Shown here in pieces: positions 51,512-54,122 of a stretch of 64,000 nucleotides of DNA (its first letter is position 1; every line of letters begins with the position of its first letter). The notes beneath the pieces are model-generated. The model was not told the DNA's origin. It made no database searches and was given only the letters and a program-made list of their open reading frames with translations. The position numbers were made by a program, and so were the translations under genes. The DNA is from Caulobacter vibrioides (GTDB lineage Bacteria > Pseudomonadota > Alphaproteobacteria > Caulobacterales > Caulobacteraceae): contig NZ_CP023315.3 of assembly GCF_002310375.3 (NCBI RefSeq), positions 372,001 through 436,000 of the forward strand, given 5' to 3'.

Positions 51512-52861
51512 TCAGGCCTTCGGCTTGTTGGTCGGCAGCTTGCAGCCACCGCCGATGCCCTTGGCCTGGGCGCAGGAGAGGAACTCCTTGGCGGCCGGCT
51601 TGGCGACGCCGATCGGATAGCCCAGGACCCAGCCCGGCAGGCCGTCCGAGCAGGCGACTTCGATGAAGCCTTCGACGTCGGTCGAACCGATGATGCGGGC
51701 GTCCGAGACCTGGCACGAGGCCTTGTTGAAGCCGACGAGGTCCTTGGTCAGGCGGGCGTACTGCGTGTCCTTCTTGGTGAAGGAGCAGCGGTAGCCGTTC
51801 ATCTCGGCGGTCAGGCAGTCAAAGACCTTGCCGTCGGTGGCGGTGAACACGGCGATGCCGCCGACGTCGCTGCCCGTGCACTTCAGCTCGACGATTTCCT
51901 TTTTCGGGTCGTTGGTCGGCAGCATGCCGTACTTCTCGACGTCGCAGGGGAAACCGGCCTTGGTGGCCAGCTTGCTGTAGAAGCCGGCCTGTTCGGTCTG
52001 AGCGGCCACCGCGTCGGTCATGGTGCAGCCGCCGCCGACGAAGCCGGCCTGGGCGCACGGGATGGCGCGGTTGAAGGCCCCGCTGACCGAGGTCTGCTGA
52101 TAGATGTAGCCCTTGCCGTCGTCGCAGGAGACTTCGAAGTAGTTGTCGACCTTGGTGCTGAGGACGTAGCGCTTGTCCTTGATCGCGCACTTGGTGCCGG
52201 CGGCCGCAGCGGCCGTGTTCAGCGTGTCGACGATCTGCAGCTGGGTCTGACGGTTGGTCAGCTTGCAGCTGACATTGCCGCCTTCTTCGTACAGCAGGCA
52301 GCTGTTGACCGCGACTTCACCGGCGATGTTCATCGGCGCGGTGGTTTGGACGATGTAGCCCGAGCCGCCCTTACAGGCGACTTCGAAGTACGAGTTCTTG
52401 GCGCCCGAGCCGATGGCGCGGGTGTTCTCGATCTCGCACGAGGCGCCGCCCTTCTTGACGTAGGCGTCGAGGCCCGAACCGGGATTGGCGTTGCCCGGCA
52501 GGATGCAGGCCAGACCGCCGACCTTGCCATCCGGACCCGGCTGGCTCGTTTCGAGGCAGCTGTAGACCTGCGGCGCGGTGTCCTTCTTGGCGACGAGCGC
52601 AAAGCCCATGCCTTCGCTACACGCGACTTCGAAGTACTTGGAAGCCGCCTTCTTGTCCTCGCCGATATAGCGAGCGTCCGACACGGTGCAGCTGGCGCCG
52701 CTGGCCTGCACGATGGCCGGCGCTTCCTTCATGCCTGCTTCACGCGCCTTGGCGTCGATGGCGGGCTTGCCCTTCTGTTCCTTCTGCGCCGAAATGACGG
52801 CGGACGGAACGAGTACGGCGACCGCGAGGGCGGCCGTCAGGCCGATCGCGAAAGGCCTCAT
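51512..52861 (-). CDS. Exported protein of five tandem four-cysteine modules (unknown family)
   Basis: A 449-residue secreted protein with a signal peptide (about 1-25, ending VISAQ) and a short charged linker. It then has five modules of about 80 residues with Cys at 58/81/102/119, 142/163/188/199, 225/246/269/279, 306/328/349/359 and 383/404/430/440. All 20 Cys fall in this pattern. Modules share a CxVSDARxIG opening and YFEVACxxGxGF core. Probably a disulfide-rich repeat scaffold in the envelope. The ATG at 52861 has AGGAG 9 nt upstream; the earlier ATG (52870) directly abuts it. Confidence 0.85.
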   Translation of the reverse strand: MRPFAIGLTAALAVAVLVPSAVISAQKEQKGKPAIDAKAREAGMKEAPAIVQASGASCTVSDARYIGEDKKAASKYFEVACSEGMGFALVAKKDTAPQVYSCLETSQPGPDGKVGGLACILPGNANPGSGLDAYVKKGGASCEIENTRAIGSGAKNSYFEVACKGGSGYIVQTTAPMNIAGEVAVNSCLLYEEGGNVSCKLTNRQTQLQIVDTLNTAAAAAGTKCAIKDKRYVLSTKVDNYFEVSCDDGKGYIYQQTSVSGAFNRAIPCAQAGFVGGGCTMTDAVAAQTEQAGFYSKLATKAGFPCDVEKYGMLPTNDPKKEIVELKCTGSDVGGIAVFTATDGKVFDCLTAEMNGYRCSFTKKDTQYARLTKDLVGFNKASCQVSDARIIGSTDVEGFIEVACSDGLPGWVLGYPIGVAKPAAKEFLSCAQAKGIGGGCKLPTNKPKA

Positions 52862-53024
52862 GGGATACATCTCCTGGGTGGATTCCTCGCGCGGACATAA
52901 GCGCGTGCTTGCATCGGGGGTCAAGATACCGTCCGACCTAGGCGTGATCGTGACAGCCCCTAGGGGCAAAAAATGGGTAAGATCCGGAAAAAGCGTCGGT
53001 CAAAGGGCGCGCGGAGGGAGTGAA

Positions 53025-54122
53025 ATGCGCGACGGGTTCGAAGACGACACGACAGAATCGGTGTCGGAACCGAAGAAGGCCGGACGACTCGTCTATCCCT
53101 TCGAGACGGCGCCGGAGCAGGGCTCTGGCCAGGCGGTCGAGGTCGCGCCCGGCGTTCTGTGGCTGCGCATGCCGCTGGGCGGCTCGCTGCAGTTCATCAA
53201 TGTCTGGGCTATCGAGGATGGCGAGGGCTGGGCGGTGGTCGACACCGGCGTCCAGACCCGCGAGACCAGCCAGGCTTGGCGCGACGCCTTCGCCGAGGCG
53301 TTGGGCGGCAAGCCGATCACCCGCGTGATCGTCACCCACCTGCATCCGGACCATATCGGCCTGGCCGGCTGGATGACGCGCAAGTTCGACTGCCGGCTCT
53401 GGATGACGAGGCTGGAGTACTTCCAGTGCCGGATGCTGGTGGCCGACACCGGCCGCGAGGCGCCCGAGGACGGCGTTCGCTTCTTCCGCGCCGCCGGCTG
53501 GGACGAGGACGCCATCGAGAACTACAAGGCCCGCTTCGGCGGCTTCGGCAAGGCGATCTACGCGCTGCCCGACAGCTATCGTCGCCTGAGCGACGGCGAG
53601 GACTTCGAGATCGGCGGCCGCACCTGGCGCGTCGTCACCGGCCAGGGCCATTCGCCGGATCACGCCTGCCTGTGGTGTCCGGAACTGAAGCTGTTGATCT
53701 CGGGCGACCAGGTGCTGCCGCGCATCTCGTCGAACGTGTCGGTGTTCCCGACCGAGCCGGACGCTGATCCGCTGTCGGACTGGCTGCGCTCCCTGGCCAA
53801 GGTCAAGGCCACCGTGCCCGACGAGGTGATCGTGCTGCCCGCCCACAATGATCCCTTCGAGGGGCTGCACACGCGGATCGATGCGCTGATCTCCGGCCAC
53901 GAGCGGGGCCTGGCGCGGTTGGAGAAGAAGCTCGTTGAGCGCAAGCGCGTGGTCGACACCTTCGGCGCGCTGTTCGCGCGTCCCATCGGGCCTGACCTCC
54001 TGGGCATGGCGACCGGCGAGGCCCTGGCCCACCTCAACTGCCTGATCCGGCGCGGACGCGTGAAGCGCAAGGTCGATGGTGACGGGGTGGCCTGGTATGC
54101 GGCGAATTCTAGCGAAGCCTAA
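53025..54122 (+). CDS. Metallo-beta-lactamase-fold hydrolase
   Basis: A 365-residue cytoplasmic MBL-fold enzyme. Metal motif THLHPDHIGLAG (near residue 103), later His in GQGHSPDHACLW and Asp in LLISGDQVLP, plus His in LPAHNDPF. A winged-helix-like C-terminal part (about 265-365) is typical of LACTB2-like members. An N-terminal acidic segment (about 1-30) precedes the fold. It is 44 bp upstream of the MarR gene on the same strand. Substrate unknown; thioester or phosphodiester hydrolysis are both possible. Confidence 0.86.
   Translation: MRDGFEDDTTESVSEPKKAGRLVYPFETAPEQGSGQAVEVAPGVLWLRMPLGGSLQFINVWAIEDGEGWAVVDTGVQTRETSQAWRDAFAEALGGKPITRVIVTHLHPDHIGLAGWMTRKFDCRLWMTRLEYFQCRMLVADTGREAPEDGVRFFRAAGWDEDAIENYKARFGGFGKAIYALPDSYRRLSDGEDFEIGGRTWRVVTGQGHSPDHACLWCPELKLLISGDQVLPRISSNVSVFPTEPDADPLSDWLRSLAKVKATVPDEVIVLPAHNDPFEGLHTRIDALISGHERGLARLEKKLVERKRVVDTFGALFARPIGPDLLGMATGEALAHLNCLIRRGRVKRKVDGDGVAWYAANSSEA

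Follow-up and report, generated by a model that had tools for sequence, protein, structure and literature searches.

The Five-Module Gene and Its Gene Neighborhood

The window analyzed here is a stretch of 64,000 nucleotides from Caulobacter vibrioides, and all coordinates refer to it. A gene on its minus strand encodes a protein that is composed of a leader followed by five modules of about 77–84 residues, with 20 cysteines (Table 1). The module HMM boundaries show that the modules abut and are joined by short linkers. The leader resembles a signal peptide that lacks a lipobox cysteine, and residues 1–31 have a pLDDT below 50 in a full-length model; judging from the look of the N-terminus, we infer that the protein is exported. 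Comparison with five relatives gives dN/dS values of 0.24, 0.24, 0.26, 0.29, and 0.56, from which it follows that the five-module gene is under purifying selection.

Table 1. Coordinates of the five-module gene, its parts, and flanking elements in the window
Feature	Position	Strand	Details
Coding sequence, five-module protein (predicted to be exported), 449 aa	51512..52861	-	ATG at 52861; stop ends at 51512
Predicted signal peptide, residues 1-25	52787..52861	-	MRPFAIGLTAALAVAVLVPSAVISA followed by QKEQ; by inspection
Module 1 (M1), residues 44-126	52484..52732	-	Cys 58/81/102/119, Glu78; module HMM
Module 2 (M2), residues 130-207	52241..52474	-	Cys 142/163/188/199, Glu160; module HMM
Module 3 (M3), residues 213-286	52004..52225	-	Cys 225/246/269/279, Glu243; module HMM; modeled alone
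Module 4 (M4), residues 294-367	51761..51982	-	Cys 306/328/349/359, Glu325; module HMM; most diverged
Module 5 (M5), residues 370-446	51524..51754	-	Cys 383/404/430/440, Glu401; module HMM
AGGAG ribosome-binding-like site	52871..52875	-	9 nt before ATG; kept in 15/15 aligned Caulobacter upstream regions, window included
Promoter-like pair, TTGACC - 18 nt - TTATGT	52895..52924	-	read by eye
Terminator-like 12-bp stem, 4-base loop	51459..51486		between the five-module gene and the convergent nitroreductase gene

The upstream region of the window was aligned with those of 14 loci out of 25 that were found in a named collection; the 25 loci are from Caulobacter, including C. vibrioides strains, besides bins labeled only Proteobacteria, Caulobacterales, or Alphaproteobacteria. 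The TTGACC half of the promoter-like pair is identical in 15/15 aligned loci and the TTATGT half differs in four of the 15; a sigma-70 consensus scan returned no promoter-like site at this position. The conservation of TTGACC and of the AGGAG site suggests that the five-module gene has its own promoter. On the other side of the gene, the terminator-like stem has a T-run on its minus-strand side, and the scan found three such sites versus 1.5 expected.

A divergent gene for a metallo-β-lactamase-fold hydrolase adjoins the five-module gene (open frame 52686–54122, plus strand) and is followed by genes encoding a MarR-type regulator, an enoyl-CoA hydratase, a DUF3995 protein, and a short-chain dehydrogenase. 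In a neighborhood comparison of 21 loci, one of which (L156) lacks the anchor, the gene cluster that contains the metallo-β-lactamase-fold protein of the window is present in 10 and the cluster that contains its enoyl-CoA hydratase in 14; these two neighbors may be only syntenic. The comparison yielded no clear partner gene, the neighbors being the hydrolase, the hydratase, and other metabolic enzymes. None of the eight window neighbors scanned is a two-component gene, and no plasmid record matches the five-module protein.

A Five-Fold Cysteine Repeat

The preliminary description of this gene listed 20 cysteines in a five-fold periodic pattern. All of them lie exactly at the residues listed, with C1–C2 spacings of 23/21/21/22/21, C2–C3 spacings of 21/25/23/21/26, and C3–C4 spacings of 17/11/10/10/10. 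The period is not due to chance, given that placing the 20 cysteines at random never (0 of 20,000 trials) leaves as low a residual once a period of four is removed, and permuting the observed gaps does so in only five of 100,000 trials. The modules also resemble one another in sequence: every pairing of modules 1, 2, 3, and 5 (six in all) has an alignment z score of 9.8–15.9, and 0/500 shuffles reach the score of any of them. The motif CxVSDARxIG, reported as common to modules 1 and 5, is present in both. Module 4 had been singled out as the most diverged and is so, since the four pairs that include it have z scores of 0.2–5.1 and their scores are reached by 1 to 201 of 500 shuffles. A family profile scores all five modules, module 4 included, at 70–81 bits, these same modules being among the sequences used to build the profile.

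Searches for Known Families

The family had not been recognized from the sequence, and no significant match was found in Pfam, NCBIfam, PHROG, PADLOC, or PDB sequences. By the preliminary description, a known Pfam domain of assigned function on each module would have spoken against a disulfide-rich repeat domain that is new; none was significant on any module, and that guess stands. The sole row obtained with hmmscan against Pfam-A at E values up to 10 is Inhibitor_I69, the Spi inhibitor (PF13734; E 0.13, 13.2 bits vs. a cut-off of 25); a faint match to the same family occurs in 3 of 28 family members (best E 0.0063), and 14 other Pfam families match the 28 members as faintly. In the same search, PepSY (PF03413), PepSY_like (PF11396), and BLIP (PF07467) gave no match to the window protein. 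One sub-threshold PepSY_like match is found in the genome from which L031 derives, on another contig and not in the module gene. Neither the protein nor the module profile matches PDB sequences (best E 0.79), and 0 PADLOC families of anti-phage defense were found at E values up to 1. A literature search returned no description of the five-module protein, although papers that use a locus tag could be missed. Very probably, the protein represents a family of exported tandem repeats that has no relative in the searched libraries.

Phylogenetic Distribution

A protein search in genomes at least 90% complete found a match in 319 of the 322 genomes of the taxonomic family of the window, covering 21/21 genera. 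We take this family to be Caulobacteraceae on account of the Caulobacter loci in the named collection. The genomes without a match in this search are G004, G192, and G202; the module profile detects three modules in G202 and still none in G004. None of the 24 genomes from other families of the order matched in the protein search, and with the module profile 121/398 genomes of the order match, 120 of which belong to the family of the window, the other being a weak match in G909 (E 6e-4). At the level of the class, the full-length profile matches 5/387 genomes and the module profile 7/387, namely four in the family, G625, and weakly G525 and G700. At the level of the phylum, 13/299 genomes match, ten of them in the family and the others at E values of 5e-4 or worse (G1137 at 0.003). 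The out-of-family searches scored a limited number of candidates, and distant single modules could be missed by them. The five-module family is core to the bacterial family of the window and rare outside it.

The match in G625, from family f17, is a three-module protein (M1-M2-M3) outside the family of the window, in a genome listed with 5% contamination, where a stray contig is possible. In this protein (L139:182–1264, identical to L237:182–1264), about 45 glycine-rich residues are inserted between C1 and C2 of module 1, whose spacing is 69. The G525 match (L225:1507–1938, minus strand; E 0.003) is a frame with a four-cysteine spacing of 25/22/10 in which valine replaces the invariant glutamate described below; it may be a distant single module and may hint at a wider, diverged family. 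The G700 frame (L226:1456–1755, plus strand; E 0.009) has a cysteine spacing of 22/25/16 with the glutamate and glycine in place, no visible leader, and no Pfam match, and it directly precedes a frame for an AraC-type regulator; either kinship or chance may account for it. The G525 and G700 frames hint that distant single modules exist outside the family. Matches in G1094 and G1163 look like chance on reading.

Conservation of Cysteine and Glutamate Residues

The 20 cysteines are invariant in an alignment of 28 family members, which comprises the window protein and 27 others that are 25–65% identical to it; the other invariant columns are the five glutamates located three residues before C2, G86, N124, G151, G251, and V324. 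In an alignment of 77 sequences, some of which are fragments, every cysteine column contains only cysteine where a residue exists, apart from a single sequence at each of the positions Cys81 and Cys102. The proposal of a repeat domain is borne out by a survey of 130 distinct proteins, which contain one to five copies of the module: all four cysteines are present in 550 of 557 modules, the glutamate in 556, and a glycine five residues after C2 in 544. The modules short of four cysteines comprise five matches that stop before C4, one partial match in the G625 protein (L139) with its long insertion, and one module in L201 with serine at C1. These losses are too rare for cysteine pairing to be read from co-loss. 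All 91 five-module proteins have exactly 20 cysteines in the module region, and their median cysteine gaps are within three residues of those of the window protein; single gaps vary widely among them (e.g., 10 to 34 for C3–C4 of module 1).

The even number of four cysteines per module fits disulfides. The 20 conserved cysteines would also be expected of a thiol-based protein, in which reduced cysteines bind a metal or buffer the redox state, but this reading is very improbable given the predicted export leader, the lack of histidine anywhere in the mature protein, and, in the window protein, the distance of 10–27 residues between neighboring cysteines, none of which form a CxxC pair. The invariant glutamate is located in strand 2 of the predicted fold, where it alternates with flanking hydrophobic residues and cysteine. 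This alternation suggests that the glutamate probably lies on the opposite face of the sheet, perhaps exposed or engaged in a polar contact.

Module Number and Order

The 130 proteins comprise 91 with five modules, 21 with three, 12 with two, three with four, and three with one, two of the 130 being cut by contig ends (L050 and L055). Where uncut, the 39 proteins with other than five modules have a hydrophobic leader and extend no more than about 13 residues beyond the last module match; six module-number variants that were scanned returned only a sub-threshold PsbQ match (E 0.07). Position profiles, trained on two thirds of the five-module proteins, read M1 to M5 in order in 31/31 held-out five-module proteins (155/155 modules), which are close kin of the training set. 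The same profiles read M1-M2-M3 in 21/21 three-module proteins, M1-M2 in 12/12 two-module proteins, including L055 with its contig-end cut, and M1 in 3/3 one-module proteins, some of these calls on short proteins being made by narrow margins. L160 reads as M2–M5, and L100 is too diverged for a clean assignment. The nested series of M1, M1-M2, M1-M2-M3, and M1 to M5 suggests that modules were either added to or lost from the C-terminal end step by step.

The genome of the window has a single copy by both protein and module-profile searches. A second copy with two modules (M1-M2) is present in 11/37 genomes of the same genus (L183–L193); in G002, G007, G021, G034, and G036 it is located on the same contig as the five-module gene at a distance of about 21–25 kb. 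In genus g16, four one- and three-module copies (L199, two genes of L201, and L204) share the motif PxRxxxSRxEMNRGR between the leader and the first module, and this motif is absent from all others of the 130 proteins.

The arrangement of the modules bears on the main rival to the binding array that we propose below, namely that the protein is a structural or spacer component of the envelope, a rod of modules that holds or coats peptidoglycan, the outer membrane, or a surface layer without inhibiting anything. Modules that abut with short linkers would suit such a rod, as would a conserved gene and upstream region, the core status of the gene in its family, and the lack of a linked partner gene. 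However, the strict positional identity of M1 to M5 and an invariant polar glutamate at every module position exceed the apparent needs of a spacer, and versions with one, two, and three modules exist. We consider a purely structural role unlikely.

Predicted Fold of the Module

Module 3 modeled alone with AlphaFold2, using 107 module sequences, has a pLDDT of 92 and a pTM of 0.84, and its predicted order is a helix (residues 2–18) followed by strands at 25–33, 37–44, 49–55, and 61–66. In the full-length model (pLDDT 75, pTM 0.48), all five modules have a helix followed by four strands. In both models the secondary-structure order matches the helix-plus-four-strands plan of the BLIP-like/PepSY domain.

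Five modules could instead be taken as the five blades of a β-propeller, as Foldseek lists propellers first for the full model and single modules superpose on propeller blades with Z scores up to 5.0. We reject this arrangement as extremely improbable: the best 50 Foldseek rows have TM scores (query) of 0.10–0.19 and rmsd values of 15.8–22.2 Å and are not meaningful, a helix is part of the module, which on its own is modeled at the high confidence given above, and proteins with one to three modules exist.

With the M3 model, Foldseek returned nothing significant (best E 0.45). A Foldseek search against viral predicted structures had no significant match (best E 0.21). A second structural aligner placed a designed protein best (Z 7.8), with no match at Z of at least 8, a size below which scores may reflect only a common arrangement. 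Monellin variants (8zxj, 1fa3) align at Z 7.1–7.5 over 70 residues with 6–7% identity, followed by 19 rows, mostly antibiotic phosphotransferases, at Z 5.5–6.5. YpmB (2gu3) aligns at Z 5.5 with an rmsd of 2.5 over 58 residues and 9% identity, with 23 rows of other folds above it, and CD1622 (4exr), which we take to be kin to PepSY, at Z 5.2. BLIP is not among the best 50 matches listed for the M3 model.

Monellin has a cystatin-like fold in which a helix is wrapped by a sheet, and kininogen and plant multicystatin are multi-headed protease inhibitors. The monellin matches, the tandem array with four cysteines per module, and the faint Spi-inhibitor matches would agree with a protease inhibitor proper, of the cystatin type or another multi-headed kind. 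Cystatins are marked by a QxVxG hairpin motif and a PW motif, but these occur in only six and five of the 557 modules, respectively, the Spi match of the window protein is below its cut-off, and the 28 members match other Pfam families as faintly as they match Spi. A strict protease inhibitor of this type is improbable.

Profile comparison with hhalign, in which PepSY was represented by 16 domains of 22 matches (six partial or sub-threshold matches were left out), gave a weak match to the module profile (probability 2.1%, P 0.023) that registers the yEV strand of PepSY with the EVAC strand of the module; 0/150 column shuffles, a lenient null, reach this score. As published, the BLIP-like superfamily comprises exported bacterial proteins with a helix-plus-four-strands domain, including tandem domains, and with proposed inhibitory roles (PMC2954215). 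The same paper reports that members of DUF2874 combine a signal peptide with one to four domain copies and lack further domains, and that BVU2987 aligns with YpmB at Z 5.2 with an rmsd of 2.9 over 58 residues and 9% identity (PMC2954215). The similarity of M3 to YpmB is at about the level of that between BVU2987 and YpmB (Z 5.5 vs. 5.2, both over 58 residues). Unrelated phosphotransferases outscore YpmB, which somewhat lowers the odds of a BLIP/PepSY-like fold of the module; we consider this fold rather more probable than not. Because the predicted fold resembles the BLIP/PepSY plan, the module as modeled is a new variant on a known architecture and not an unprecedented fold. We keep the family out of PepSY, PepSY_like, and BLIP because those Pfam models do not match it; the module family would act like, and possibly belongs near, the BLIP-like superfamily.

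Proposed Function

We propose that the gene encodes a soluble exported protein built solely of five tandem modules, each a helix and a four-stranded sheet that is probably closed by two disulfides within the module. In the periplasm or in secreted form, it would serve outside the inner membrane as a multivalent binding array in which each module position from M1 to M5 would have its own fixed surface, conserved by position. This array would inhibit or regulate an exported partner, for example, an envelope protease, an enzyme, or a sensor domain. We favor a binding array because the protein appears to be exported, repeat-built, cysteine-closed, and positionally conserved and contains no recognizable catalytic or partner domain, and we lean toward a binding or regulatory rather than a catalytic role.

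BLIP is reported to inhibit β-lactamases (PMC2954215), PepSY has been linked to the inhibition of proteases and to metal binding, and DbfQ, a PepSY protein of Vibrio cholerae, is reported to bind directly to the sensory domain of a kinase (PMC12714742). By analogy with these three, the inhibition or regulation of an exported protein would be the most likely action of the array. The reading as a whole, that is, a BLIP/PepSY-like, disulfide-locked binding array that inhibits or regulates an exported partner, has in our estimate about even chances of being right; that the protein is the inhibitor of a particular exported protein is doubtful. We can also speculate, although we deem it quite unlikely, that the protein is a lineage-defining, disulfide-locked, multi-headed extracytoplasmic inhibitor or receptor, with ordered BLIP-like modules gained or lost at the C-terminal end and each position binding a different exported partner, that would be needed in the wild by this bacterial family though hardly any other bacteria have it.

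Comparison with Known Systems

A gene that is kept by nearly every sampled genome of the family of Caulobacter, a leading cell-biology model, and that matches no searched family is a gap in the description of the envelope. Four conserved cysteines and a single invariant charged residue mark its module, which is predicted with confidence as a clean unit, and the nested series is a readable record of the growth or shrinkage of a repeat protein. The features that go beyond the preliminary description are the invariant glutamate, a distribution nearly confined to one bacterial family, the ordered series from M1 to M5, and the BLIP/PepSY-like predicted fold.

DbfQ is a small exported PepSY protein that exemplifies action by binding to a partner; unlike the protein described here, it has a single domain and is encoded beside its two-component system (PMC12714742), whereas no such gene is located among the eight window neighbors. 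The monellin/cystatin fold is matched at Z 7.1–7.5 over 70 residues, but identity is only 6–7% and the cystatin motifs are missing in nearly all modules. YpmB, a PepSY-domain protein of Bacillus subtilis, superposes on M3, but with low identity and at a Z score below 8 that can reflect a common arrangement.

A further close parallel is the BLIP-like/PepSY superfamily, whose members are exported, have a helix and four strands, occur as head-to-tail copies, and have a proposed function in binding and inhibition (PMC2954215). DUF2874 in particular shares with the Caulobacter family the lack of any domain besides the repeats (PMC2954215). In contrast to the BLIP-like superfamily, the Caulobacter family is nearly restricted to one bacterial family, does not match the Pfam models of that superfamily, and has four conserved cysteines per module together with an invariant glutamate in strand 2; its proteins have up to five ordered modules, compared with the one to four copies given for DUF2874 in that source (PMC2954215).
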